Under the pieces are notes generated by a model that saw only the letters and a program-made list of their open reading frames with translations, was not told where the DNA came from and did not search any database. The translations under genes were made by a program, and so were the position numbers. Shown here piece after piece: positions 28,547 to 42,236 of a stretch of 64,000 nucleotides of DNA. The stretch comes from Phyllobacterium bourgognense (GTDB taxonomy: Bacteria; Pseudomonadota; Alphaproteobacteria; Rhizobiales; Rhizobiaceae), in assembly GCF_003337575.1 (NCBI RefSeq), contig NZ_QPJM01000010.1, positions 1-64,000 of the forward strand, read 5' to 3'. Numbering within the stretch: the first letter of the stretch is position 1; each line of letters begins with the position of its first letter.

Positions 28547-29919
28547 TGATCCTCCGCTCCTATGTTGCTGGGGCCGCGCTCGATGCCGTCGGAGGGCCGG
28601 ACGCTGACATGGTATTTACCGGTTCTGGTATCGGCTGCACGCTGGACGACATCGCCCCACGGTGCCTGGTCGGTAAAGTGCTGGCGCAGATAGCCAAGCA
28701 GATCGTTCAGCTGATCGTTTGTCAGCACATCGGCGAATCCTGGCATGATAGCGCTGGTGCGGCCACTTGCTGCTGGAAGACCGTAGAGCACCATATTGAT
28801 GGCGTTTTGCGCATCTGGTGCATGCACCGTGGAGCTGAGCCGCAGATCAAGTCCGCCGAAAGGCTGCGGCCGGCCGTTTTCATGGCAAGCGGCGCAGGCA
28901 GCCTGATAGATCGCAGCACCCTTTCCGCCTAACGCCGATTGATCATTGCCTATCGCAGACGTGATCGGGCCCGATTTTATCTCTTGCAGGAGTTGTTCTG
29001 ACTTGGCGCGTCGCTCCGCCGAAGGTTCGCCCACGATTGATGCGATGTAGGTTGCCATTGCACGAATATCGCTGTCAGGCAGCAGCCCAAGATTTCCGGT
29101 AACTTCACTCATGGGGCCATTAGCGACGCCGTGATCCGGATGCCAGCCCTGCCGCAGATAGGTGTACAGGCCCTCCTCGTCCCAAACCACAGGAGCGGGC
29201 GATGATCCATCAAGCGCGAAAGCACTCCAACCCTCGGCTTCGCCACCCGCTAGGTGCAGTGATGCTTTTTCGGCACCGAGCGTGTTGCGCGGCGTGTGGC
29301 ACGCACCACAATGGCCCAGACCATCGACCAGATAGGCACCGCGGTTCCATTCCTCACTTTGGCTCGCATCGGGTTGATAAGCGCCGTCCCTGAAGAACAG
29401 CATCTTCCAGCCAGCCAGAACCAGACGCACGTTCAAGGGGAAAGGCAGCTCGTTCGGTGGCGGCGTGGCTTTCACTGGCTGACGTGTCATCAGGAAGGCA
29501 TATAGGGCACGGTTGTCGTCATCCGAGACATTGGTGAAGTGATCATAAGGGAACGCGGGATAAAGATGCTCGCCCTTACGACCAACTCCATCCCGCATGG
29601 CCCGCTGAAAAGCCGCTTCCGACCATGTTCCTATGCCGGTCTCCGCGTCGGGTGTGATGTTGCTGGAATGGATCGTCCCGAAGGGGGTCGGAATGGTCAG
29701 CCCACCGGCAAAGGATTTTCCGCCGGGATTGGTATGGCAAGCCGTGCAATTGCCGACGGCGGCGAGTTTCGCCCCATGCTCAATCAAGGCCTGGTCGAAG
29801 GATGCACGTTCTGGCGGTTTGATTGGAGCAATTTCCGGCTTCCACGCGTAAACAAAAGCGCCCGCAACACCGACAACAATCAGCACTCCAAGACCGGTAA
29901 GAAAACGACCGAATTTCAC
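28543..29919 (-). CDS. Triheme cytochrome c electron acceptor subunit
   Basis: A 458-residue membrane-anchored c-type cytochrome with three CXXCH heme sites: CTACH near residue 58, CGACH near 205 and CAACH near 338. One N-terminal hydrophobic helix (LTGLGVLIVVGVAGAFVYAW) anchors it in the periplasm. This is the alcohol/aldehyde dehydrogenase cytochrome subunit architecture that delivers electrons to the quinone pool or terminal oxidase. I prefer the GTG at 29919 because AAGG lies seven bases upstream, over the TTG at 29925. It heads the operon. Its promoter lies in the 300-base gap shared with a DMT transporter gene. Confidence 0.9.
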   Translation of the reverse strand: MKFGRFLTGLGVLIVVGVAGAFVYAWKPEIAPIKPPERASFDQALIEHGAKLAAVGNCTACHTNPGGKSFAGGLTIPTPFGTIHSSNITPDAETGIGTWSEAAFQRAMRDGVGRKGEHLYPAFPYDHFTNVSDDDNRALYAFLMTRQPVKATPPPNELPFPLNVRLVLAGWKMLFFRDGAYQPDASQSEEWNRGAYLVDGLGHCGACHTPRNTLGAEKASLHLAGGEAEGWSAFALDGSSPAPVVWDEEGLYTYLRQGWHPDHGVANGPMSEVTGNLGLLPDSDIRAMATYIASIVGEPSAERRAKSEQLLQEIKSGPITSAIGNDQSALGGKGAAIYQAACAACHENGRPQPFGGLDLRLSSTVHAPDAQNAINMVLYGLPAASGRTSAIMPGFADVLTNDQLNDLLGYLRQHFTDQAPWGDVVQRAADTRTGKYHVSVRPSDGIERGPSNIGAEDQ

Positions 29920-30107
29920 AGGCAATCCTTGGAATCAAACGTCCAACCATCGGGCCGGGATACTCGGCGCGTGCAAAAGTTGGCGAGAACTTAGAACGAA
30001 TCCAATGTTAGATATATCAGCAACTTGGGTCAATTGAGCCGGGGCGCAATGCAATCAAGATTGTGTGATCGTTATACAAACTACATAAGCCGTTACTTAC
30101 GCAACAG

Positions 30108-30125
30108 CTGACATCACCGTGTCAG
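30108..30125. promoter_or_regulatory. Dyad upstream of DMT transporter
   Basis: CTGACA, six bases, TGTCAG: a perfect 6+6 inverted repeat in the 300-base gap between the cytochrome and DMT transporter genes. The rest of the gap (29926-30220) is A/T-richer with no gene or other clear element. The dyad may be an operator for either divergent unit; a six-base arm is short enough to be chance. Confidence 0.25.
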
Positions 30126-30220
30126 TAGCATCTCAATTTTGGCTTTCGAAGCCTTGCCATCTCGCGCAACAGCGGCGCTAGATCACGCATGTATCCGTTG
30201 TTCGAACAGTCAAGGCAATC

Positions 30221-31114
30221 ATGAAGCCATCGGCTTATCAACTGGGACTGATTTTCGTAACCGGCTCGGCCATTGCATGGAGCCTCGCGGGTCTGTTCAC
30301 GCGCGTCATCCCGCAGGACAATTGGACCATCCTTGCATGGCGCGGGATTTTCGGTTCGCTCGGCAGAGCGACGGTGATGGTCTTTACCGAGCGCGGCCGG
30401 TTCTGGGCGAGCTTCCGCGACATGGGCCGGGCTGGCTGGCTTTTCGTTGGCATTTCCGCGCTCGGCATGATGTTTTTCATCAGTGCCTTGAAGAAAACCA
30501 CCGTAGCGCATGTCGCTGTCATCTATGCCACCATCCCGTTTGTGGCCGCAATTCTTGGCTGGTTCGTTCTCGGCGAAAGATCGACCTGGAGCGCCATTCT
30601 CGCCAGCATCGCTGCTGCGACCGGGGTCTCGCTTATGGTTGGTTTCAGCCTCGAAGGTGCTATCTTCGGCGATGCTCTCGCCTTTGGCATGACACTGTGT
30701 ATGGCGGTGCTGATGATCATTGTCCGCCGTTCGCCGGATGTTTCTGTCATGCCCGCTGCCTGTCTGTCGGCTCTCGTCAGTTCCCTCGTCTGCTGGCCGC
30801 TCGGCGATCCGCTTGGCGTTACGGCCCATGATCTGATGCTCATTGCGCTTTTCGGCATATTGGTTTCTGCCGTGGGCCTTGCCCTCTTCACCCTTGGGGC
30901 AAAGCTCCTTCCACCGATCGAAACGGCGCTGATCGGTTCCCTTGATGCCCCCTTGGCGCCATTCTGGGTCTGGCTCGTATTCAACGAAGTGCCAAGCAAG
31001 AGTACAGTGTTTGGTGGATCGATCGTTTTCGCTGCTGTGATCGTTCATGTGATTTCCGGCGCATCGCGAAAGGCCAAAGCGCAACGCCTGGTTCAACAAA
31101 ATAATGTATCGTGA
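30221..31114 (+). CDS. DMT-superfamily (EamA) transporter
   Basis: A 297-residue protein with about ten membrane helices in two EamA halves (about 6-140 and 150-285). EamA transporters export amino acids, metabolites or drugs, or import others; the substrate is unknown. The ATG has AAGG seven bases upstream. It is divergent from the molybdenum hydroxylase operon and followed by an MBL-fold hydrolase 80 bases on, without an obvious shared pathway. Confidence 0.87.
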   Translation: MKPSAYQLGLIFVTGSAIAWSLAGLFTRVIPQDNWTILAWRGIFGSLGRATVMVFTERGRFWASFRDMGRAGWLFVGISALGMMFFISALKKTTVAHVAVIYATIPFVAAILGWFVLGERSTWSAILASIAAATGVSLMVGFSLEGAIFGDALAFGMTLCMAVLMIIVRRSPDVSVMPAACLSALVSSLVCWPLGDPLGVTAHDLMLIALFGILVSAVGLALFTLGAKLLPPIETALIGSLDAPLAPFWVWLVFNEVPSKSTVFGGSIVFAAVIVHVISGASRKAKAQRLVQQNNVS

Positions 31115-31194
31115 CCCAATCTTTACGCTGATTGACAAGCTGAACCAAAAGCGGCGAGAATCGTGTCGAGCTCAAGCTCGGGGGACGCGCGAAA

Positions 31195-32085
31195 ATGTTG
31201 GAAGCCGCCATAAAACCGGACGTTCAAGCATTCTTCGACAAACGAACGAATTCCGTCCAGTACGTAGTTGCAGATCCCGTGACCCGGCATTGTGCAATCA
31301 TCGACTCGATTCTGGATTTCGACGAAAAGTCCGGATCAACGGCACCCGTCAACGCCGACCGAATATTGGAGTTCGTTGACGCCAATAGCTTGAAGGTCGA
31401 GTGGATACTGGAGACCCACCCGCACGCCGACCATTTTTCGGCAGCCGACTACTTGCGAACGAAAACAGGCGCAACGACCGCTATCGGTAGGCATATCGTC
31501 GAGGTTCAGGCCCTGTGGAAACGATTCTACAATTGGCCGGATTTCCCGGCAGACGGATCGCAATGGGACCATCTATTCAACGCCGGAGACTATTTCAGTA
31601 TTGGGAAGCTGACCGGGGCCGTGATGTTCTCACCGGGCCATACCCTTGCGTCGGTTACGTATGTTATTGGCGATTCCGCCTTCATTCACGATACAATGTT
31701 CATGCCGGACGGCGGAACCGCCCGCTGTGACTTTCCCGGAGGGAGCGCTGAACACTTATGGCAGTCCATTGAATCGATTCTTGCGCTCCCGGACGACACC
31801 AGGGTCTTTGTCGGTCACGATTATCAACCCGGCGGGCGCGAACCTCTGTGGGAAAGCACTGTGGGCGACCAGAAGCGCCACAATATCCACGTCTCCCAAT
31901 GCAATTCCCAAGCTGAGTTCGTGGCAATGAGACAAGCCCGCGACAAGACGCTGCCCATGCCCAGACTTATTCTGGCAGCCTTGCAGGTCAACATGAATGG
32001 TGGTCGGCTGCCTGAACCAGAAGCGAACGGTGAACGTTTTCTGAAAATACCCCTGAATGCCCTCGGCGACGCGAAATGGGATTGA
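31195..32085 (+). CDS. MBL-fold metallohydrolase, persulfide dioxygenase-like
   Basis: A 296-residue metallo-beta-lactamase fold protein. The metal motif HPHADHFSAADYL (near residues 75-87) is the HxHxDH signature, with further ligands in SPGHTLASVTYVIGD and FVGHDYQPGG. The insert and the C-terminal region resemble Blh/persulfide dioxygenases (ETHE1-like) that handle glutathione persulfide, rather than glyoxalase II, but I cannot prove the substrate. The gene stands ahead of the XRE-cupin regulator with nested dyads between them. No sulfur-metabolism partner is adjacent. Confidence 0.82.
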   Translation: MLEAAIKPDVQAFFDKRTNSVQYVVADPVTRHCAIIDSILDFDEKSGSTAPVNADRILEFVDANSLKVEWILETHPHADHFSAADYLRTKTGATTAIGRHIVEVQALWKRFYNWPDFPADGSQWDHLFNAGDYFSIGKLTGAVMFSPGHTLASVTYVIGDSAFIHDTMFMPDGGTARCDFPGGSAEHLWQSIESILALPDDTRVFVGHDYQPGGREPLWESTVGDQKRHNIHVSQCNSQAEFVAMRQARDKTLPMPRLILAALQVNMNGGRLPEPEANGERFLKIPLNALGDAKWD

Positions 32086-32097
32086 CCTTGCATTGTC

Positions 32098-32169
32098 AGG
32101 TTATGAGCGCCAAGGTATGCGAGGTCGTGCACTCTAAATCTGCTGGCCAGATTTACGAATTCATAACCT
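32098..32169. promoter_or_regulatory. Nested dyads upstream of XRE-cupin regulator
   Basis: An outer pair, AGGTTATGA (32098-32106) and TCATAACCT (32161-32169), encloses a perfect inner dyad AAATCTG-CTGGC-CAGATTT (32136-32154). Together they could be overlapping operators for the regulator's own control or a structured leader after the MBL gene. No T run follows, so a terminator is less likely. Confidence 0.4.
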
Positions 32170-32198
32170 AATGACCAGCTGACAGGTCACGGCAAGGC

Positions 32199-32807
32199 AT
32201 GAACAAGATTGAACTCGGCAAACAGCCCAACGGTATCACTGAGACCAATCCGGCTCGGCTTGGCATCCGGCTGAAACTGGCACGGCAGACACGCGGCCTT
32301 ACACTGAAGGCTCTCTCCGAAGCCGCCAATTGTTCAGAAAGCCTCCTGTCCAAGATCGAGAACGGCAAGGCATCGCCTTCCCTGCCCATGCTGCACCGAT
32401 TGGTCCAGGTTCTCGAAACCAATATTGGGTGGATGTTTGAAGAGTCGGACGGCGAGGAAGGCATCGTCTTTCGCGCCGGCGCAAGACCACTGATCGCGCT
32501 TGATCCTTTACGGCGCGGTGAAGGCATCTCGCTGGAGCGCATCATACCCTATTCGCCTGGGCACCTTCTCCAGTGCAACATCCATCATATCGAGAAGGAT
32601 GGAGCCAGCGCCGGTCCAATTCAGCACGCAGGCGAAGAAGTGGGCTACATCCTCGCCGGCGAAGTCGAACTCACAGTCGGTGAAAAACAGTTTGAGCTCA
32701 AAGAGGGCGACGCGTTCGTCTTCAACTCCGATCTGCCCCATTCCTACCGGAACACGGGCAACAAGCGCGCAAGTATCTTTTGGGTCAACACTCCGCCGAC
32801 ATTCTAA
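32199..32807 (+). CDS. XRE-family regulator with C-terminal cupin
   Basis: A 202-residue repressor/activator with an N-terminal helix-turn-helix (about 22-77: LGIRLKLARQTRGLTLKALSE, then SLLSKIENGKASPSLPMLHRL) and a C-terminal cupin (about 115-195, with GEEVGYILAGEVELTVGE and GDAFVFNSDLPHSYRNTG). The family (PuuR-like) senses a small ligand such as an amine, amino acid or sugar derivative through the cupin. It lies directly upstream of a catabolic ABC operon whose promoter has a perfect dyad between -35 and -10, and is the obvious candidate to bind it. The ATG has AAGG upstream. Confidence 0.9.
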   Translation: MNKIELGKQPNGITETNPARLGIRLKLARQTRGLTLKALSEAANCSESLLSKIENGKASPSLPMLHRLVQVLETNIGWMFEESDGEEGIVFRAGARPLIALDPLRRGEGISLERIIPYSPGHLLQCNIHHIEKDGASAGPIQHAGEEVGYILAGEVELTVGEKQFELKEGDAFVFNSDLPHSYRNTGNKRASIFWVNTPPTF

Positions 32808-32829
32808 GGCCAAGAGCCTTTCAATTTAC

Positions 32830-32858
32830 TTGACATGCATTCAAGTCTCTTGAATTAT
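32830..32858 (+). promoter_or_regulatory. Sigma-70-type promoter with spacer operator dyad
   Basis: TTGACA (32830-32835), a 17-base spacer and AATTAT (32853-32858) make a good housekeeping promoter for the ABC operon. The spacer holds ATTCAAG-TCT-CTTGAAT (32839-32855), a perfect 7+3+7 dyad overlapping the -10. A protein bound here would block RNA polymerase, so this is a likely repressor site, most simply for the adjacent XRE-cupin regulator. Confidence 0.65.
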
Positions 32859-32924
32859 GGTTTGGCGTTCAGTTTTTATGAGGCCCTCACATGGGTAATT
32901 CATCAAATAAAAAGGGGAATCGGG

Positions 32925-33863
32925 ATGCGTCTTACCAAAATACTTTCGGGCTGCGCTGCAGCCATCGCCATGTCTCTTGTTGTTGGCTCGTCCGCCTGGG
33001 CCGATACGTTTGCGCTGGTCACGATCAACCAGCAGGCGCTTTTCTTCAACCAGATCAATGAAGGCGCCCAGAAAGCGGCCGATGCCGCCGGCGCCAAACT
33101 GGTTATCTTCAACGCCAACAATGTTCCAAGCGCCCAGAATGACGCCATGGAGAATTATATCACCCAGAAGGTCGACGGCATTATCCTGGTTGCGATCGAT
33201 GTGAATGGCGTCAAGCCTGCAATCACTGCTGCCAAAGCTGCCGGCATCCCGGTCATTGCTATCGATGCGCAGATTCCCGACGGCGACAACATCGCCTTTG
33301 TCGGTGTCGACAACACCAAGGCGGGCGAAGACATCGGCAAGTTCTATGCTGACTACGTCAAGTCCAACTTGTCGGGAACTGCCAAGATCGGCGTGATTGG
33401 CGCGCTCAATTCGTTCATTCAGAACCAGCGTCTGGACGGCTTCAAGAAGGCTGTTGCGGACAGTGGCCAGAAGATAACTTTCCTCGATACGGTCGATGGC
33501 CAAAACGTTCAGGATGTGGCTCTGACCGCCGCCGAAAACCTGATGACCGCCAATCCTGACATGACGACGCTTTATGCGACGGGTGAGCCTGCGCTGGTCG
33601 GTGCCGTTTCGGCCGTCACGAGCCAGGGCCGGACTGGAGACGTCAAGGTATTCGGTTGGGACCTCACCAAGCAGGCCGTTGAAGGCATCGATGCCGGCTG
33701 GGTCACAGCTGTTGTTCAGCAGGACCCCGCCGGTGAAGGCAAGGCTGCCATCGAGGCATTGACCAAGCTGAAGAAGGGCGAAAAAATCGAGCCCATCATC
33801 AACGTGCCGGTGACAATCGTTACGAAGGACAACGTCGACCAGTTCCGCGGCATGTTCAAGTAG
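32925..33863 (+). CDS. Sugar-type ABC transporter periplasmic binding protein
   Basis: A 312-residue periplasmic binding protein of the ribose/D-galactose class (Peripla_BP_4). Residues 1-26 are a signal peptide ending SSAWA before DTFALVTINQQALFFNQINEG; the fold then shows two lobes with VDGIILVAIDVNGVKPAI and VIAIDAQIPDGDNIAFVGVDN. It captures substrate for the ATPase and permease encoded downstream. The ATG at 32925 has a GGGG run upstream and follows a strong promoter; the frame opens further up but runs through the promoter. Ligand unknown: the operon's hydrolases hint at something with amide or ester bonds rather than a simple sugar. Confidence 0.93.
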   Translation: MRLTKILSGCAAAIAMSLVVGSSAWADTFALVTINQQALFFNQINEGAQKAADAAGAKLVIFNANNVPSAQNDAMENYITQKVDGIILVAIDVNGVKPAITAAKAAGIPVIAIDAQIPDGDNIAFVGVDNTKAGEDIGKFYADYVKSNLSGTAKIGVIGALNSFIQNQRLDGFKKAVADSGQKITFLDTVDGQNVQDVALTAAENLMTANPDMTTLYATGEPALVGAVSAVTSQGRTGDVKVFGWDLTKQAVEGIDAGWVTAVVQQDPAGEGKAAIEALTKLKKGEKIEPIINVPVTIVTKDNVDQFRGMFK

Positions 33864-33877
33864 AACAAGTGCTGCAA

Positions 33878-33902
33878 GGGCGCGGCCGCACATGCCGCGC
33901 CC
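33878..33902 (+). terminator. Stem-loop after binding-protein gene
   Basis: A perfect 9-bp, all-GC stem (GGGCGCGGC / GCCGCGCCC) with a 7-base loop lies 15 bases after the binding-protein stop and 35 bases before the ATPase start. It has no T run. Such hairpins commonly protect the 3' end of binding-protein mRNA and lower downstream expression, matching the need for excess binding protein. Confidence 0.75.
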
Positions 33903-33936
33903 AATCCTGTCGTCATTTTAACCCAATGGTATTGCG

Positions 33937-34740
33937 ATGAACGATATTGGCAATGAAACCTACCGGGTCCGCATGACCGGCATATTCAAGCGGTACAATA
34001 CGATCCAGACACTCGACAATGTATCGTTGAGCCTGAAGCCTGGTGAAGTGCTCGGTCTCGTCGGCGACAATGGCGCTGGCAAATCGACCCTGAGCAAAGT
34101 CCTGTCCGGAGCAGTCATACCGGACGCAGGAACCATCGAGATCGACGGCAAGACCGTGTCTTTTTCCTCGCCCGCCGACGCAAGATCAGAACATGTGGAG
34201 ATGGTTTATCAGGACCTTTCCCTGTGCGATACCGTCGATGTGGCGGGTAACATTTTCCTTGGAAGGGAACCGAGACGCCGGATATTGGGCATGCCCTTTC
34301 TCGACAAAAGGCGGATGCACGATGAAGCTCGCGCCATGCTCGACCGGCTTGGCATCGTCATTGCCGATACGGGTTTGAAGGTCGAAAATCTCTCCGGCGG
34401 CCAGCGTCAATCCATCGCCATCGGCCGCGCGGCTTCCTTCGAACCTTCCGTCCTCATCATGGACGAACCAACCGCAGCCCTCGCGGTCGCGGAGGTCGAG
34501 GCAGTTCTTGATCTTATTCGTGCTGTCAGCGCCCGCGGCGTCAGCGTGATCCTGATCACCCACCGTCTGCAGGATCTGTTCCTGGTTTGCGACCGCATTC
34601 AGGTTATGTACGAGGGCCGCAATGTCGCCGAAAGACGCATTGAAGACACCAGCATCGAAGACGTCGTGAACCTCATTGTCGGGCGCAAATTCCAGGCTCG
34701 TTCGGCGCGCCGCAGCGAAGAAAATGGAGCACGGCCATGA
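33937..34740 (+). CDS. Sugar-type ABC transporter ATP-binding protein
   Basis: A 267-residue single ATPase domain. Walker A is GDNGAGKST (about residues 46-54), the signature is ENLSGGQRQSIAIGRA, Walker B is VLIMDEPTAALAV, and the switch histidine is in ITHRLQDL. It is a single-domain ATPase, unlike the duplicated ATPases of ribose and xylose importers, so it would act as a homodimer with the permease. Its stop overlaps the permease start by four bases (34737-34740). Confidence 0.93.
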   Translation: MNDIGNETYRVRMTGIFKRYNTIQTLDNVSLSLKPGEVLGLVGDNGAGKSTLSKVLSGAVIPDAGTIEIDGKTVSFSSPADARSEHVEMVYQDLSLCDTVDVAGNIFLGREPRRRILGMPFLDKRRMHDEARAMLDRLGIVIADTGLKVENLSGGQRQSIAIGRAASFEPSVLIMDEPTAALAVAEVEAVLDLIRAVSARGVSVILITHRLQDLFLVCDRIQVMYEGRNVAERRIEDTSIEDVVNLIVGRKFQARSARRSEENGARP

Positions 34741-35765
34741 GCAACCCATCGACTTCAAGCAACGATGCGCTGCATCCAGCCGCCGCTCAAACGCGCGTAC
34801 GAAAAAGCACGCTGCACGATCGTTTCATGGCCAACGGCAGCGTTGTTTCGATAGCCATCTTCTTTCTCGTCGTGTGCCTGTTGTTCTCCGGCATCACCGA
34901 CGCCTTTCTAACGGCGCCGAATCTCCTCAACATCGTCAGGCAATCGGCGCCGCTGCTGATCGTCGCTGCCGCGATGACCTTCGTAATCACCACGGGGGGT
35001 ATCGACCTTTCGGTCGGTTCCGTACTCGCGCTGGTCGCCACCCTGTCGGCGGTAACATTGCAGGCCGGTCTACCTTGGCCACTGGTTATCATCGCTATGC
35101 TGCTGCTCGGCGCTGCCATTGGTGCAATCCAAGGCTTCTTCATCGCCTATGAGCGCATACCTGCCTTCATCGTCACGCTGGCCGGGCTGTCTGTCATCCG
35201 CGGCATAGCTCTGCTTATCACTGGCGGCTATTCCATTCCGGTCGAAGCAACAAGCCCCTTCACGGTCATCGGCCGCGCCTGGTTTCTCGGTGTGCCCGTC
35301 CCCGCGCTGATTGCCCTCGTCGTGCTTGTTGTCGCGTATCTCGTCTTCAACGAAACCCGCTTCGGCCGCTACGTGACCGGCATTGGTGCGAACGCCGAGG
35401 CTGTACGCCGCGCCGGTGTCGATACGCGGCTGACAACGTTGATGGTTTATGTCCTCTCGAGCACGGCAGCGGCAGCTGCTGGTATCATCCTCGCCGCCCG
35501 CCTCGGCTCTGGTTCGTCCAATGCCGGACAAGGCTTTGAGCTGGAAGTGATTGCCGCCGTCGTGCTTGGCGGTACCAGTCTTTTCGGTGGCCGGGGCACG
35601 CTGATTGGCACCGTGCTTGGAGCCTTGACCGTGGCCGTTATCGGCAATGGCCTCATCCTTGCGCACATGTCGCCATTCTTCACGCCCATCGTCACCGGCA
35701 CGATCATTTTGGTTGCGATCTGGCTGAACTTCCGGCTGTTTCGCGGCGCGATCCGGAGCAGATGA
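34737..35765 (+). CDS. Sugar-type ABC transporter permease
   Basis: A 342-residue permease of the ribose/RbsC class with about nine to ten helices. The conserved ITTGGIDLSVGSVLALVATLSAV stretch (about 86-108) and the VLGGTSLFGGRGTLIGTVLGAL stretch (about 277-298) are family marks. Its stop TGA is directly followed by the ATG of the phosphotriesterase-family gene, so all belong to one transcript. Confidence 0.93.
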   Translation: MSNPSTSSNDALHPAAAQTRVRKSTLHDRFMANGSVVSIAIFFLVVCLLFSGITDAFLTAPNLLNIVRQSAPLLIVAAAMTFVITTGGIDLSVGSVLALVATLSAVTLQAGLPWPLVIIAMLLLGAAIGAIQGFFIAYERIPAFIVTLAGLSVIRGIALLITGGYSIPVEATSPFTVIGRAWFLGVPVPALIALVVLVVAYLVFNETRFGRYVTGIGANAEAVRRAGVDTRLTTLMVYVLSSTAAAAAGIILAARLGSGSSNAGQGFELEVIAAVVLGGTSLFGGRGTLIGTVLGALTVAVIGNGLILAHMSPFFTPIVTGTIILVAIWLNFRLFRGAIRSR

Positions 35766-36857
35766 ATGACCGGCCTCGACTTTCAGAACAATGAACGCGG
35801 ACGTGCGCCAATCGGGATCAAGTCCGGAACCGTGATGACCGTTCAGGGGCCGCTGCCTGTCGGTGAAATGGGCGTTACCCTGATGCATGAGCATATTCTG
35901 CTGGATGGAGCGACAACCTGGAAATGCCCGTGCCATCCCGACGAATTGGCCATCGCGGATCAGCCCGTATCGATCGAGATCATCGGCGAGTTGCGCATGA
36001 ACCCATACATGAATCGTGACAACGTTTCCTTGGATGATACGGACCTTGCGCTTTCCGAACTCAAGCGCTTTCAGGCGCTCGGTGGCCACACCGTCGTCGA
36101 TCCCACCAACATCGGCATCGGCCGCGATCCGGTGAAGTTGCGGCGTATCTCGCGGATGGCCAATCTGAAGATTGTCATGGGCTCCGGGTTCTATCTGCAA
36201 CACACCCATCCCGAATGGCTGAAAGATATGGATGTCGATGCGGTGACGGAATTTCTGGTCAACGATGTTGGCGGCGGCGATACGCAACCCGAGATCATGC
36301 CGGGAATCATCGGTGAAGTTGGCGTTAGCAAGGACTTCACATCGGAAGAGCGCAAGTCCCTGCGTGCCTCGGCGCGTGCGTCCCGTCTCACCGGCGTACC
36401 GCTATCGATCCATCTGCCAGGCTGGGAGCGTCTTGCCAATCAGGTGCTGGACATCGTCGAAGAAGAAGGCGCCGACCTTCGCCACACGATACTTTGCCAT
36501 ATGAACCCCAGTCACGAGGATCTGCCTTACCAGGCCGGGCTCGCCAAGCGTGGCGCGTTCCTCGAATACGATATGATCGGCATGGACTATTACTACGCCG
36601 ACCAGGATGCTCAGTCACCATCCGACGAACAGAACGCCCGTGCCATTCGCTCGCTCGTCGATATGGGTTTTGGCGACCGCGTCCTGTTGTCTCAGGACGT
36701 ATTCCTGAAGATGATGCTGACACGCTACGGCGGTTTCGGTTACGGCCATATTCTCAAGCACTTCGTGCCACGCCTCAAGCGCCATGGCGTTGATGCCGGA
36801 ACCATCGAGCGCATGCTTACAGACAACCCCAAATCCGTATTTTCTGCAGCGGCCTGA
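35766..36857 (+). CDS. Phosphotriesterase-family metallohydrolase
   Basis: A 363-residue TIM-barrel hydrolase of the phosphotriesterase/aryldialkylphosphatase family. The first metal motif is TLMHEHILLDG (HxH near residues 41-43), followed by GIIGEVGVSKDF (the bridging acidic or carbamylated position, here Glu), HLPGWERLANQV, HTILCHMNPSHED and the Asp of LLSQDVFLK. Characterised relatives are lactonases and phosphotriesterases, and many act on sugar lactones or unknown esters. It starts directly after the permease stop. In this operon it likely hydrolyses the imported compound or an intermediate, which is inference. Confidence 0.88.
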   Translation: MTGLDFQNNERGRAPIGIKSGTVMTVQGPLPVGEMGVTLMHEHILLDGATTWKCPCHPDELAIADQPVSIEIIGELRMNPYMNRDNVSLDDTDLALSELKRFQALGGHTVVDPTNIGIGRDPVKLRRISRMANLKIVMGSGFYLQHTHPEWLKDMDVDAVTEFLVNDVGGGDTQPEIMPGIIGEVGVSKDFTSEERKSLRASARASRLTGVPLSIHLPGWERLANQVLDIVEEEGADLRHTILCHMNPSHEDLPYQAGLAKRGAFLEYDMIGMDYYYADQDAQSPSDEQNARAIRSLVDMGFGDRVLLSQDVFLKMMLTRYGGFGYGHILKHFVPRLKRHGVDAGTIERMLTDNPKSVFSAAA

Positions 36858-36887
36858 TCGCTGCGTTTTGGTACCCAAGGAGTTTTC

Positions 36888-37658
36888 ATGTCCAAACACA
36901 AAGTTCTTCTCGCCGGCGAGTCGTGGGTTTCCACCGCGACCCACATCAAGGGTTTCGATCAGTTCCCCACCGTCACTTACCACACCGGCGCCGACGAATT
37001 GCTGAAGGCGTTGAAGGACAGCGACTTCGACGTGAAATTCATGCCGGCGCACGAAGCGCAGCGCGATTTCCCTCAGACGATTGAAGCGCTGTCCGAATAT
37101 GAGGCGATCATTCTCTCCGATATCGGCGCCAATACACTGCTTCTGCATCCCGATACATGGATTCATTCGAAGACCACGCCGAACCGTCTTCGCCTGTTGC
37201 GCGACTATGTCCGCAATGGCGGTGCGCTGCTGATGTTTGGAGGCTACTACAGCTTCCAGGGTATCAATGGCGGTGCACGCTATCACAAGACGGCAGTTGA
37301 AGAGGTCCTGCCCGTTACTTGCCTTTCCGTCGATGACCGCATTGAGGTTCCCGAGGGGTTCGCCCCTGTCGTAACCGGTTCTGGCGACCATCCCATATTG
37401 CGAGGCCTCGGCACGAATTGGCCAATCCTGCTTGGTTATAACGAAGTCACCGTCAAGGACGGGGCGGAAGTCCTTGCAACCGTATCGACGGATTACGGGT
37501 CACAGCCTCTGCTCGTTACCGGCACCTATGGCAAGGGTCGCACGCTTGCCTGGACCTCAGATGTCGGACCGCATTGGCTCCCTTCTGATTTTATAGCGTG
37601 GAAAGGCTACAAGACCTTGTTCGAGCAGATGCTTGCCTGGGCAATTGCAAAAGATTGA
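36888..37658 (+). CDS. Glutamine amidotransferase-like protein (ThuA/DUF1355 type)
   Basis: A 256-residue class I glutamine amidotransferase-fold protein of the type annotated as cytoplasmic glutamine amidotransferase (PF07090-like). The fold elements VLLAGESWVS, EAIILSDIGANTLLL, GALLMFGGYYSFQG and GKGRTLAWTSDVGPHW are visible. The position of the usual nucleophile elbow reads GGYYSFQG, with no cysteine, so it may not be a glutaminase. It may act on a sugar-like ligand, as ThuA-related proteins do. It lies 30 bases after the phosphotriesterase gene with a good AAGGAG site. Confidence 0.8.
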   Translation: MSKHKVLLAGESWVSTATHIKGFDQFPTVTYHTGADELLKALKDSDFDVKFMPAHEAQRDFPQTIEALSEYEAIILSDIGANTLLLHPDTWIHSKTTPNRLRLLRDYVRNGGALLMFGGYYSFQGINGGARYHKTAVEEVLPVTCLSVDDRIEVPEGFAPVVTGSGDHPILRGLGTNWPILLGYNEVTVKDGAEVLATVSTDYGSQPLLVTGTYGKGRTLAWTSDVGPHWLPSDFIAWKGYKTLFEQMLAWAIAKD

Positions 37659-37669
37659 CCCAAACTGCA

Positions 37670-38923
37670 ATGAACACGAGGGCAAGGATCAATGGCGAAC
37701 GTCTCCTTCAAAGGCTGGATGAGTTTGCCGCTATTGGCGCAACCCCGGCGGGCGGTGTCAACCGCCGGGCACTGTCTCCCGAAGATCGGAGCGCCCGGAC
37801 TAAACTTGCAAATCTGGCTTTGGAGCGCGGCTTTGGCGTTTTCCAGGATCCGATGGCCAATTTGTTCATCCACCGCCCTGGGCTTTCCACCGACCTTCCG
37901 CCCTTCCTGATTGGCAGTCATCTCGACAGCCAGCCTATGGGCGGTCGCTTCGACGGCGCGCTTGGTACGTTGTCTGCCTTCGAAGTGCTCGAATCCCTGG
38001 AGGATGCCGATATCCAGACACCTAGAGCCGTGGAGGTGGTCGCCTGGACCAACGAGGAAGGCAGCCAATACGCGCCGGGCTGCATGGGCTCGATGGCCTT
38101 TGCCTCGGGTGCAATTCCGATCGAGTGGTATTCCGCCCATTCTCCAGACGGCAAGGTATTGGGTGAGGAACTTGCGGCGACCCTCGACGCCCTTCCGGAA
38201 GCGCTCAAGCGCCCGCTGGGAGGCCCGCTGTCCGGCTATCTTGAACTGCATATCGAACAGGGACCGTCGCTTGAGCGCGAGAACATCCCGATCGGTATAG
38301 TCCATGCGATTCAGGGCACGCGCTGGCTTGAGGTCGTGGTTACGGGCCAGACCGCTCATGCCGGGACCACTCAGCTCTCGTTCCGCCGTGATCCGCTCGT
38401 GGCCGTCACCGAAGCGCTACAGGAGCTTTACAATTCCGTCATGCCCAATGATGAGCGGGCCCGGTTGACCATTGGGCGCATTTCGGTGGAGCCGGCTTCG
38501 ATCAACGCCATTCCCGGCAAGGTGTCCTTCAGTGTCGACCTGCGCCATCCGGACGCTGCCGAACTGGCGCGGCTGGAGGACCATGTTCGCGTAACCTGCG
38601 AAGAAAAGGCGGCGGCGTTCGGGTGTGCAGTGACCATCCGCCGAACGTTCGATATGCCACCGGCGCAATTTTCTCCGCTGCTATTGCAAGCTGTCGATCG
38701 GGCGGCAACGGGTCTCGGTGTCGCCTCGAAGCCAATGGTATCGGGCGCGTTCCATGACGCACTTTTCCTTGCGCGGGTCACCGATGCTGCCATGATCTTC
38801 GTGCCTTGCCGCGATGGTCTCAGCCACAATGAAGCAGAATACGTCAAGCCCGAACACTCCAAAATGGGCGCACAGGTTTTGCTGGAATCGACTCTCGCAG
38901 CGCTTCAGATGGCTATGAAATAG
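37670..38923 (+). CDS. M20-family carbamoylase/amidohydrolase
   Basis: A 417-residue Zn-dependent amidohydrolase of the hydantoinase/carbamoylase group (allantoate amidohydrolase, beta-ureidopropionase, N-carbamoyl-L-amino acid hydrolase). Metal and active-site motifs are GSHLDSQPMGGRFDGALG (about 82-99), TNEEGSQYAPGCMGS, ELHIEQGPSLE and SGAFHDALFLA. The internal dimerisation domain carries VTGQTAHAGTTQLSFRRD. It cleaves an N-carbamoyl or ureido bond and releases ammonia and CO2. It begins 12 bases after the previous stop and closes the operon, pointing to a nitrogen-containing substrate. Confidence 0.9.
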   Translation: MNTRARINGERLLQRLDEFAAIGATPAGGVNRRALSPEDRSARTKLANLALERGFGVFQDPMANLFIHRPGLSTDLPPFLIGSHLDSQPMGGRFDGALGTLSAFEVLESLEDADIQTPRAVEVVAWTNEEGSQYAPGCMGSMAFASGAIPIEWYSAHSPDGKVLGEELAATLDALPEALKRPLGGPLSGYLELHIEQGPSLERENIPIGIVHAIQGTRWLEVVVTGQTAHAGTTQLSFRRDPLVAVTEALQELYNSVMPNDERARLTIGRISVEPASINAIPGKVSFSVDLRHPDAAELARLEDHVRVTCEEKAAAFGCAVTIRRTFDMPPAQFSPLLLQAVDRAATGLGVASKPMVSGAFHDALFLARVTDAAMIFVPCRDGLSHNEAEYVKPEHSKMGAQVLLESTLAALQMAMK

Positions 38924-39112
38924 CCTGTATTCGCGCGCTCCGCTGGATGTATTGCGGCGGCTGCCCGAAAGCTCGCAGAAATGCGCGGCGCGCAGGACTC
39001 GCGCGCGCCACAATCTGAAAAAGCTACGAATCGTGCCAACGCCTTGACACATTAGACGTATATTCGCTGTCGACCTGTCCTCTGATGATAAAACCAACTC
39101 TCCGGGCCAACG

Positions 39113-40906
39113 ATGTCTCGCAAACTGGCACTGCGCCGATTGGGCGTGTTCTCCATATTTCTTGCACCAAGCCGTCTGCGGGCATTTGCCCGCAGCACCG
39201 AACTCGGCCTCGTTCTTGCGGCAGCGGCTGTCGGCATCGTGTCGGGCTTCACCGTCACCGCAATGAGTTTCATCGCACAACAGATGCACGAGCTGATTTT
39301 CGGGTTGAACGAAGGCGAACGGCTCTCGTCGGTCATTACGAATGACCTCATCCTTTTGCTCATCGCACCTGTGACGGGCGGCGCCATTTTGGGATTGTTG
39401 CTGCTTATCCTCAATCGTTACCGCAAACGACCCATGGTCGACCCCATCGAGGCAAACGCACTGCACGGCGGACGTCTTTCACTCAATGACAGCCTCATCA
39501 TTACTGCGCAAAACCTCATATCCAACGGATTCGGTGCATCGGTCGGTCTCGAAGCCGGCTACACCCAACTCGCATCGGGCCTTGCTTCGAAGATTGGCCT
39601 CTCCCTGCGATTGCGTCGCTCGGACCTGCGCATCCTCGTCGGCTGTGGCGCAGCCGGTGCGATTGCGGCTGCGTTCAACGCCCCGCTAACCGGTTCATTC
39701 TACGCCTTCGAGTTGATCATCGGCTCCTATACGATCCTTAGTCTCGCGCCAGTTGTCGTTTCTGCGCTTGTCGCCACAATTATTGCGCGGATGCTCGCTG
39801 GCGATAATTTTATCATCGATATCGGCAATTTCGGCACAGTAGTCCCAGCAGATTATATCCCGGCTCTGCTTCTCGGTGTCTTCTGCGCACTGGCCGGCAT
39901 CCTTCTCATGAAGGGGGTTGCGTTTATCGAGCAGATCGCGCGAAAGAGCTTTATTCCCGGACCGATCCGGCCATTGTTTGGGGGTGCAGTCATAGGCCTT
40001 TTGGCGCTGATTTCACCGCAGGTCCTTTCCGGCGGTCATGGCGCGCTGCACCTCAATCTCGATAACACAACTCCGATTGCGGCTTTAATTGGCGTGCTGC
40101 TGCTCAAGGCGTTTGCCTCGGCGATTTCCATCGGTTCGGGTTTCCGCGGCGGCCTGTTTTTCGGCTCGCTGTTCATGGGCGCATTACTGGGCAAGCTCTT
40201 TGCCTACTCGGCACCCTACGTCTTCGCCCATGCGACGTTGACACCAGTTATCTATGCCGTTGTCGGCATGAGTGCGCTGGCCGTTTCGGTCATCGGCGGA
40301 CCCATGACCATGACGTTCCTTGCCCTCGAGATCACGGGCGATTTTCCGATAACGGTGTTGGTCCTTGCGGCCGTGATTACCGCCTCGCTCACTGTACGCA
40401 ATCTGTTCGGCTATTCGTTCGCCACCTGGCGTTTCCACCTGAGGGGCGAAAGTATCAGAAGTGCACATGATGTGGGCTGGATTCGCAATCTGACCGTGGC
40501 CAAGCTTATGCGTGTCGATGTCCGAACGGCGCCGTCCAATCTTAGCATCGACGCGTTCCGCCGTGATTTCCCGCTTGGTTCAACTCAGCGCGTGATCATT
40601 GTCGACGATAACAACAAATATGCCGGCATGGTTCTGGTACCGGAGGCGCATTCGGGCGTGACCGAAAGCTCCGACGAAGGCCAATCGATCGCCGGCCTGA
40701 TCAAATACAAGAACGACTTCCTGCAACCACAAATGAACGCCAAACAAGCAGCCGCTATTTTTGACACGGCGGAAAGTGAAGAACTGGCGGTCGTCAGTGA
40801 TCTTGTCGAGCGACGCGTCATCGGCCTCCTCACCGAAAGCCATACGCTCCGCCGCTACAGCGAAGAACTGGACAGACAGCGGCGCGATGTTTCCGGAGAA
40901 ATCTAG
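39113..40906 (+). CDS. ClC-family chloride channel/antiporter with CBS region
   Basis: A 597-residue ClC protein with membrane domain (about 30-440) and a C-terminal cytoplasmic region resembling CBS domains (about 460-590). Selectivity motifs are altered: [12 protein letters not shown] replaces GREGPT, keeping the gating glutamate, and [20 protein letters not shown] replaces GxFxP. It moves Cl- or another anion, possibly coupled to protons. The 190 bases before it hold no gene or clear repeat. Its stop overlaps the convergent aldo/keto reductase in a CTAG tetranucleotide. Confidence 0.88.
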
Positions 40907-41739
40907 AGCATCTCAAGCGGTCGTTTTCGTCGCGGTGGCGGGAAAGCTTCATCCAGAACAGCGAGTTGATCCGCCGTCAGTTTCACATCTACCGCGCGGC
41001 GATTCTCCCGTATGTGCTTGGACGTACTCGACTTTGGAATGGCGATGACACCGTCGTGGCTAAGAACGAAGGCCAATGCCACCGCGGCTGGAGTTGCCCC
41101 GCACTCCTTGGCAACACGTGCGAGTGCCGGATGATTGAGCATCCGCCCCTGCTCGATCGGCGAATAGGCCATTATCGGTATCTTGTGTTCCTGGCACCAG
41201 GGCAATAGCTCAAACTCGACACCGCGCCGGCTGAGATTGTAGAGCACCTGGTTGGTCGAAACGGCCTTTCCGCCGTCTATCGCCTGAAGCTCTTCCATAT
41301 CTTCCGTGTCGAAATTGCTGACACCCCAATGCCGGATTTTCCCGGCCTTGATCAGGTCTTCGAATCCAGCCACCGTTTCTTCAAGCGCGTAGCCACCGCG
41401 CCAGTGTAGGAGATAAAGGTCGATCGTTTCACATTTCAGTCGTTTGAGGCTGCGTTCGCAGGCAAGTGCGGCACCCCTTCGTGATGCATTTGATGGCAAA
41501 ACTTTGCTTACTAGAAACACCTCATCGCGTCTGTGTTCGATGGCTTCGGCGACCACTTCCTCTGCCCCGCCATTGCCATACATTTCCGCCGTATCGATCA
41601 GGCTCATGCCGAGATCGAGGCCAAGCCGCAATGCATCCGCTTCCTGATAGAACTGCCGTCTGTCCTCGCCCATGAACCATGTTCCCTGACCGAGCACCGG
41701 AACCATCTCACCTGAGGGAAGAGCCGTCTGCTTCATCAT
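40903..41739 (-). CDS. Aldo/keto reductase
   Basis: A 278-residue NADPH-dependent oxidoreductase of the AKR family. The catalytic tetrad Asp-Tyr-Lys-His is visible as [12 protein letters not shown] (Asp, Tyr), VSKVLPSN (Lys) and LYLLHWRGG (His). NADPH contacts occur in [14 protein letters not shown] near the C terminus. Substrate unknown. Its start overlaps the stop of the GFA-family gene upstream (ATGA), so the two are co-translated, perhaps in aldehyde detoxification. It is convergent with the ClC gene. Confidence 0.9.
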
Positions 41740-42236
41740 ATTTCACCTTGCATCGCCGTTGTGAAACGCGCTTTGGCTTCAGCACTCCAGACCTTTTCCG
41801 CATCGTAGTTGCCTTCGAAGGCCGGAACATCCGCCGGCAACGCGACCCATGAATGCTTGGTTGTTGTGAAACAATGAATATCGGGAGATAGCTTTGAAGC
41901 GTCGTCCAGCGTGCCAACGTAAACAAGCGCGAAAGTCTCACCGAGCTGGGAATGATTGGCCCATAGCGGTACGGAACAGCGCGGGCAGCGATGGATCATC
42001 TGGCCGGCTGGCAATGCCGAGGCCGTGTGAATCGCATCAGGCTTGCCCTCACCGGTGAGTATAACGCGGTCCGCTTCGATCATGGCGTTGACCGCGAAAG
42101 CCGAACCCGACATCCGCTGGCAATAACGGCAGTGGCAGCCGTGAACAACGATCGGCGCAGTTTCCATGCGGTAGCGTACATGGCCGCAAACGCAACCCCC
42201 GGTCAGGCCGCCCGAGACATCCGAATCTGTCGCCAT
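41736..42236 (-). CDS. GFA-family zinc protein (glutathione-formaldehyde type)
   Basis: A 166-residue GFA-fold protein. Cysteine ligands for two zinc sites are in [10 protein letters not shown] (about 14-23), [13 protein letters not shown] (about 32-44) and CPRCSVPLW (about 85-93). The family name comes from glutathione-dependent formaldehyde-activating enzyme, but most members have unproven function. It is the first gene of a two-gene unit with the aldo/keto reductase. The upstream gap of 216 bases to the TRAP genes holds no clear repeat. Confidence 0.87.

Follow-up and report, generated by a model that had tools for sequence, protein, structure and literature searches.

Within a 64-kb window of the Phyllobacterium bourgognense genome (the window being the whole stretch of DNA analysed, which lies on contig C10, one of the 61 contigs that make up the 5.6-Mb genome), an operon at positions 32199–38923 raises an awkward question: why is a sugar-type importer encoded together with several hydrolase-like proteins and no sugar kinase? 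The operon comprises seven genes, all intact and all on the forward (+) strand, encoding an XRE-cupin regulator (REG), the substrate-binding protein (SBP), ATPase (ATP) and permease (PERM) of an ABC importer, a phosphotriesterase-family hydrolase (PTE), a glutamine amidotransferase-like protein (GAT) and an M20-family amidohydrolase (M20). A first-pass annotation made from the sequence had assigned these families, all of which hold in Pfam and NCBIfam profile searches, and had noted that no kinase is present and that no established pathway combines these proteins. The latter agrees with the open-licence literature, in the accessible parts of which we found no characterised pathway of this kind. 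The former is correct for the 64-kb window, where no PfkB, BtpA or TenA relative was found at E values up to 1e-3; it does not extend to the genome as a whole, which carries a second-type kinase–BtpA pair elsewhere, or to most relatives. The kinase is absent only from the operon of this lineage; related genes at another site in this genome probably provide PfkB and BtpA. On balance, we favour a reading in which the operon would import a pentose conjugate bearing amide or ureido bonds and hydrolyse it step by step, its sugar being phosphorylated by a kinase acting in trans. The apparent oddity of a sugar importer without a kinase is then replaced by a split-pathway model that can be tested.

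The operon was compared with its relatives through a GAT-based scan of one genome per species, in which the best 80 of 184 confirmed places were kept (79 from Rhizobiales or genera of that group and one labelled Proteobacteria bacterium), with remoter relatives under-sampled; the closest relatives at the locus are Phyllobacterium. A simple gene caller overlooked genes in several loci, so the counts below rest on tblastn for the 81 loci made up of these relatives and the window, and on hmmsearch for a set of 28 further loci. The order REG-SBP-ATP-PERM-PTE-GAT is kept in 74/80 relatives' loci, and PTE and GAT adjoin in 78/80 (exceptions L050 and L062; the gap is 30 bp in the window), supporting the view that this is a conserved unit with its own regulator gene. 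The first-pass annotation had named conservation of the hydrolases without the transporter as an outcome that would count against it; instead, 77/80 relatives' loci have PTE together with all or part of the importer beside GAT, the exceptions being L050 and L062, with no PTE beside GAT, and L064, with a shortened PTE match and no importer.

A ribokinase-like PfkB kinase (KIN) and a BtpA/SgcQ protein (BTPA), hereafter the usual pair, follow GAT in 69/81 loci. The largest class (45/81) has the order REG-SBP-ATP-PERM-PTE-GAT-KIN-BTPA-M20, and a second class (16/81) is the same without M20, which is thus dispensable; in a third class of eight loci, the window included, GAT is followed directly by M20. 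Among the remaining 12 loci, L023, L074 and L075 resemble the largest class with an extra kinase-like match behind M20, and the others are L015, L020, L035, L039, L050, L062, L064, L071 and L073. The 69 loci with the usual pair are accordingly the 45, the 16, these three and L015, L035, L039, L064 and L071; L015 has an interrupted kinase match followed by BtpA. An apparent BtpA–M20 fusion in L013 was rejected and left unused, as the BtpA match ends at residue 206 and a frame change is likelier.

Where, then, are the kinase and BtpA of P. bourgognense? Its genome returned one BtpA match, on contig C1, in the arrangement GntR-BtpA-PfkB. The C1 BtpA and PfkB are 57 and 43 % identical, respectively, to the in-operon pair of Phyllobacterium sophorae, indicating a pair of a second type, as opposed to the usual pair relocated. 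We searched for this type-B BtpA in the genomes behind all 80 relatives' loci (79 distinct genomes, as L022 and L050 share one) and found it, at 85–100 % identity to that of P. bourgognense, in seven (those of L003, L004, L005, L007, L008, L020 and L022). All seven lack the usual pair between GAT and M20, while type B was found in 0/69 genomes with the usual pair, where the best matches are 54–60 % identical. The physical arrangement varies: in L020 the type-B pair lies inside the operon directly behind M20, and in L050, a second GAT copy in the genome of L022, GntR, type-B BtpA and a kinase lie upstream of GAT. GntR, BtpA and kinase genes are side by side in L151, L152 and L153, and in L150 GntR was the one gene that the simple gene caller returned next to the established BtpA position. 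Two loci with neither the usual pair nor type B have the genes close by, as a BtpA–kinase pair directly upstream of REG (L073) or as a BtpA, TenA and kinase cluster just downstream of the operon (L077). In a quick tree built from four operon proteins (78 rows, excluding L050, L062 and L064), six changes are required to explain absence of the usual pair; of six independent pairs, four have type B with absence of the usual pair, none shows the opposite and two show no difference. The complementary distribution is striking in counts, with few independent events behind it.

This distribution also bears on a nitrogen-only alternative, in which this lineage would use the operon merely to strip amide or carbamoyl nitrogen from its substrate, with kinase and BtpA dispensable and the C1 set serving an unrelated pathway. 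Such a role would fit the lack of a kinase or BtpA in the window, the membership of M20 in the amidase/carbamoylase family TIGR01879 and the fact that the C1 set comes with a regulator gene separate from REG and shows no copy of the palindrome found at the REG promoter (see below). It sits poorly with the complementary occurrence of the usual pair and type-B BtpA, and with the placement of type B inside the L020 operon and beside the GAT copy in L050, and we consider it unlikely.

The recurrence of a kinase extends beyond the Rhizobiales operons. We scored 28 further GAT loci from annotated plasmid records and other genomes, picked from match lists and not at random, by hmmsearch within 9.5 kb of GAT; L115 among them is of the window's own type, while L158, L161 and L162 (further Rhizobiales operon copies) and L168 (no GAT match) were left out. 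PfkB is present in 21, PTE in 15 and BtpA in 13, although BtpA in L165, L166 and L167 does not count independently, these loci having been found through it; a kinase accompanies PTE in 13 of the 15 loci. Examples include Agrobacterium vitis (LacI, importer, PTE, ribokinase, BtpA and an M20-type hydrolase), Rhizobium ruizarguesonis, Paracoccus and Roseivivax (importer, PTE, BtpA, TenA and kinase), Pantoea (TenA, BtpA, PfkB, PTE and an M20-family protein) and Roseomonas (BtpA, PfkB and a peptide-type importer, with PTE not found). The Rhodococcus and Monoglobus loci have a ribokinase without PTE, and that of Raoultella has a nitrilase-family protein, with a kinase not found. In another order, PTE and a kinase flank a 314–320-aa (amino acid) protein (L175, L176 and L179), which in L175 is a DMT_YdcZ membrane protein. 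The same core recurs in another form within the window's genus, in a second cluster of Phyllobacterium trifolii (L155), where a GATase1-like gene is joined by an importer, PfkB, BtpA, an amidase-signature protein and an M20-like protein that scores under the Pfam cut-off. In L156, a penicillin-amidase-like gene lies behind GAT with no kinase or BtpA nearby, and kinase, BtpA and TenA genes are side by side on another contig of that genome, a second case of split gene sets. Profile PF07090, to which GAT belongs, was matched in 6/247 and 26/250 genomes of two other orders, most of the 26 being partial matches in proteins of more than 850 aa; the GAT system is widespread but patchy. TenA adjoins GAT in other lineages and the operon in L077, and we treat it as a lead only and not as a pointer to thiamine salvage.

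Two more GAT loci were noted. In P. bourgognense itself, contig C20 carries a second GATase1-like gene (L085) with a LacI–PfkB fusion kinase, two permeases, an ATPase, an SBP and an ArgE/DapE-type M20 protein, an arrangement also found on a Rhizobium etli plasmid. In Klebsiella pneumoniae L165 (1980–2780 and 8299–9950), a partial, unannotated GAT match is accompanied by a kinase match in two pieces flanking an IS1 element.

One of the closest known systems is a four-gene locus of Salmonella. In the excerpts of a 2026 report that we draw on, STM3547 (RikA), the one assayed kinase in this comparison, phosphorylates D-ribose, the genes alongside it (STM3548, STM3549 and STM3550) are predicted to encode a GATase, a DMT transporter and a PTE, and the authors suggest a pathway for an unknown carbon source (PMC13432705). 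The Salmonella locus and the Rhizobiales operons are alike in that PfkB, a GATase1_like protein (STM3548, structure 2gk3) and a PTE-family protein are encoded together; going by the same excerpts, they differ in that the third Salmonella gene is a predicted DMT transporter and that neither an ABC importer nor M20 is among the four genes. The P. bourgognense operon has the importer, an XRE-cupin regulator and M20, and shows PTE and GAT close together as at rikA, with PfkB not in the same cluster, the kinase and BtpA being on another contig. In the accessible open-licence literature, we found no paper joining the rikA locus with rhizobial operons. The present comparison ties that locus to many such operons and sets out which parts recur and which can be exchanged.

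Does the importer itself suggest a sugar? SBP (32925–33863, 312 aa, with a signal-peptide-like start) and PERM (34737–35765, 342 aa) exceed the cut-offs of Peripla_BP_4 (PF13407) and BPD_transp_2 (PF02653), respectively, the combination characteristic of CUT2 importers, and the best NCBIfam match of PERM is ribose permease, under its cut-off. The ATPase of CUT2 importers has two fused ATP-binding domains and about 500 aa. The ATP protein (33937–34740, PF00005) has a single nucleotide-binding domain in 267 aa, matches positions 5–255 of the 510-position AlsA model, and finds its best matches only with the first half of RbsA/AlsA-type models. The closest solved chain to SBP is 5hsg (E value 4.5e-103). 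Of the seven residues that we take to be the hydrogen-bonding residues of ribose-binding protein (N13, D89, R90, R141, N190, D215 and Q235), an alignment to that protein indicates that SBP keeps D89, R141, D215 and Q235 and has A68, A145 and G250 at the positions of N13, R90 and N190; F15 and F16 are retained, with G at the position of F164. This suggests a pentose-type grip with extra room. As three of the seven ribose contacts and one aromatic residue are lost, free ribose is probably not the ligand, and we rejected plain ribose uptake on the same ground. The system is therefore reminiscent of the rbs ribose importer/ribokinase system in its ribose-type SBP and permease and in the ribokinase-type PfkB gene of most relatives' operons, but differs from it in the single-domain 267-aa ATPase, the partly changed SBP contacts and the added hydrolases.

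The hydrolases offer clues to the non-sugar part. PTE (35766–36857, 363 aa; PF02126, 204 bits) matches the structures 3k2g (443 bits), then 3rhg, and 9efa (223 bits), and carries the HxH, bridging Glu/Lys, His, His and Asp pattern of the PTE family, with the metal ligands H41, H43, E184, H216, H245 and D311 present in 88/88 sequences. Aligned by eye with 9efa, which we take from its name and letters to be of the PTER type, PTE has G219, P248 and F313 where PTER has R204, R233 and H300. In excerpts of two reports on mammalian PTER, the enzyme hydrolyses N-acetyltaurine and N-acetyl-beta-alanine, and docking and mutagenesis of the mouse protein place H26, H28, E169, H201, H230 and D298 at the metal centre and R204, R233 and H300 in contact with the substrate (PMC11374699, PMC13311154); 3K2G is given as the top PDB structural match of mammalian PTER (PMC11374699). 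The two proteins thus share the family, the top match and the metal-ligand positions, but the PTER substrate residues are replaced in PTE, so that the metal centre is common and the substrate probably different. A PTER-like N-acetyltaurine hydrolase was rejected for the same reason.

Hydrolysis of amide- or ureido-type bonds, as the first-pass annotation had proposed, appears plausible from the enzyme families. Its companion idea of an ester or lactone bond is the weaker of the two, as PTE is closest to 3K2G, the top PDB match of mammalian PTER, but a metal-stimulated esterase activity is also on record for Rsp3690 in an excerpt of an earlier report (PMC5341072). That activity and the gene content of the operon in P. 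bourgognense would accommodate the annotation's original proposal, in which an ester/lactone and ureido compound is taken up and hydrolysed with no sugar kinase step; with PfkB after GAT in 69/81 homologous loci, a kinase near GAT in 21/28 further loci and the second-type pair in the own genome, we regard this as very unlikely.

GAT (36888–37658, 256 aa; PF07090, 386 bits) had been described as lacking an obvious catalytic cysteine, and this is borne out: its sole cysteine, C145, is invariant in 20 Rhizobiales sequences but, in a broader set of 102 sequences, is not one of the positions that reach 97 % conservation. A class I glutamine amidotransferase was therefore rejected, there being no broadly conserved catalytic cysteine. 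GAT matches 3soz (STM1381) and 2gk3 (STM3548) in sequence and fold, the latter being among its top matches. A predicted model (mean pLDDT 73) matches these two, the Planctomyces GATase1-like protein 3rht, GH42 enzymes and a ThuA-like protein; the fold neighbours beyond its own family and 3rht are thus GH42 and ThuA-like domains. M20 (37655–38923; PF01546) scores 363 bits against the TIGR01879 hydantoinase/carbamoylase model, above the curated cut-off of 204. This recalls hydantoinase/carbamoylase pathways, from which the operon differs in that its metal hydrolase is a PTE-family protein and that a class of 16/81 loci has no M20.

A further alternative is a nucleoside-like variant, in which the substrate would be a cyclic ureide carrying an N-linked ribose, such as a riboside of the dihydropyrimidine or hydantoin type, with PTE opening the ring, M20 removing the carbamoyl group and the ribose passing to the kinase. 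The combination of metal amidohydrolase, carbamoylase and ribokinase would suit this, as would an SBP of the ribose type in which several contact positions carry smaller side chains. M20 is nevertheless missing from the 16-locus class, and other GAT loci carry TenA, ArgE/DapE, penicillin-amidase-like, amidase-signature or nitrilase-type enzymes; we judge the variant very unlikely.

Returning to the favoured amide- or ureido-bearing pentose conjugate, the ribose-type importer would bring the conjugate in, PTE and M20, to judge by their families, would cleave amide or ureido bonds of its non-sugar part, and GAT may act on it by non-glutaminase chemistry. PfkB would then phosphorylate the pentose, and BtpA would process the phosphorylated sugar; in P. 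bourgognense, both are presumed to come from the separate GntR-BtpA-PfkB set on contig C1. By sequence, the usual-pair kinase comes nearest to ribokinases and to 3i3y, a carbohydrate kinase of known structure. For BtpA, no close relative of known structure was found by sequence; its AlphaFold model (mean pLDDT 78) resembles phosphate-binding TIM barrels (PdxJ, HisF, ribulose-phosphate epimerase, TrpC, TrpF, TenI and thiamin phosphate synthase), and a phosphate-binding-type barrel is predicted. The argument for a pentose and a kinase draws on the kinase and BtpA after GAT in 69/81 loci, the C1 set of the own genome, the type-B distribution, PfkB in 21/28 further GAT loci, the action of RikA on D-ribose and the four of seven ribose positions kept in SBP. 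The gene content, its conservation and the complementary distribution of the two pair types are observed; the substrate, the reactions and the regulation are inferred.

Several observations weigh against this reading. SBP lacks three of the seven ribose contacts and one aromatic residue, and the RikA authors, in the excerpts cited, say that ribose may be an off-target substrate (PMC13432705). Seven of the 28 further GAT loci have no kinase nearby (L119, L122, L126, L156, L159, L160 and L164), and L062 has REG and GAT, yet a search of its genome for BtpA, up to E 1e-20, found none. With 43 % identity between the kinases and 57 % between the BtpA proteins, the two pair types may have different substrates; the fold matches of BtpA are moderate (TM about 0.5–0.6) and of low identity. 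A sign test on the independent pairs gives p = 0.125, on a quick tree that does not distinguish gain from loss. Finally, our scan of the own genome listed no exact or one-mismatch copy of the REG palindrome at the C1 set.

Taken with the further loci, the operon is best explained as the Rhizobiales form of a widespread catabolic system with a core of a GATase1-like protein and PfkB, often joined by PTE and/or BtpA, in which importers and amide hydrolases are exchangeable. We propose more tentatively that an amide-bearing pentose-conjugate pathway exists across alpha- and gammaproteobacteria and beyond, in which GAT would act as a non-glutaminase, BtpA/SgcQ would act on the phosphorylated pentose, hydrolases and importers would be swapped to match the non-sugar part, and the whole would be split into two separately regulated sets in Phyllobacterium. 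If true, PF07090 and PF03437 would gain what are, to our knowledge, their first catabolic roles. A ligand screen of one binding protein could help to assign several poorly understood families.

How might the operon be controlled? REG (32199–32807, 202 aa) combines an XRE helix-turn-helix (PF13560/PF01381) with a cupin domain (PF07883) and keeps its position in 74/80 relatives' loci. Its best NCBIfam match, PuuR, scores 83 bits against a cut-off of 211, and a PuuR-type putrescine operon was ruled out on that score. Between REG and SBP lies a sigma-70-like promoter (32830–32858, + strand; TTGACA-17-AATTAT, with TTGACA at 32830 and AATTAT ending at 32858), which scores 10/12 and is weak by itself, as the region holds four promoter-like sites against 2.9 expected. 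Its spacer contains the palindrome TTCAAG-TCT-CTTGAA (TTCAAGTCTCTTGAA, 32840–32854), a probable REG operator. The palindrome occurs between REG and SBP in 74/74 scorable loci (55 exact, 19 with one mismatch), the other six of the 80 lacking REG, SBP or both, and TTCAAGNNNCTTGAA has a single exact match across the 5.6-Mb genome. One-mismatch matches are near background (28 places, the exact site among them, compared with 12 for a control pattern), so only the exact site was used. The likeliest reading is a local repressor site, at which REG would repress the SBP-to-M20 transcript until an inducer binds its cupin domain. We rejected the palindrome as a link between REG and the C1 set, as no match was listed there.

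The gaps between the genes, from REG to M20 in order, are 117, 73, −4, 0, 30 and −4 bases. The spacing of 0–35 bases with overlaps described earlier therefore applies to the last four junctions and not to the first two, and a single transcript is plausible. The most likely start of SBP is 32925, replacing 32835, and that of M20 is the TTG at 37655, giving a 4-base overlap with the GAT stop codon.

No Rfam match was found in 29000–42000 up to E = 1. Upstream of REG, positions 31195–32085 encode a metallo-hydrolase that matches positions 139–423 of the 423-position bifunctional Blh model, below the model cut-off. Downstream, only about 190 bases (38924–39112) separate M20 from a chloride-channel gene in the window; in L003–L005, the same interval holds an AraC-type gene on the minus strand and an SDR-like gene, assigned by reading the sequences, and the window apparently carries a deletion relative to these loci.

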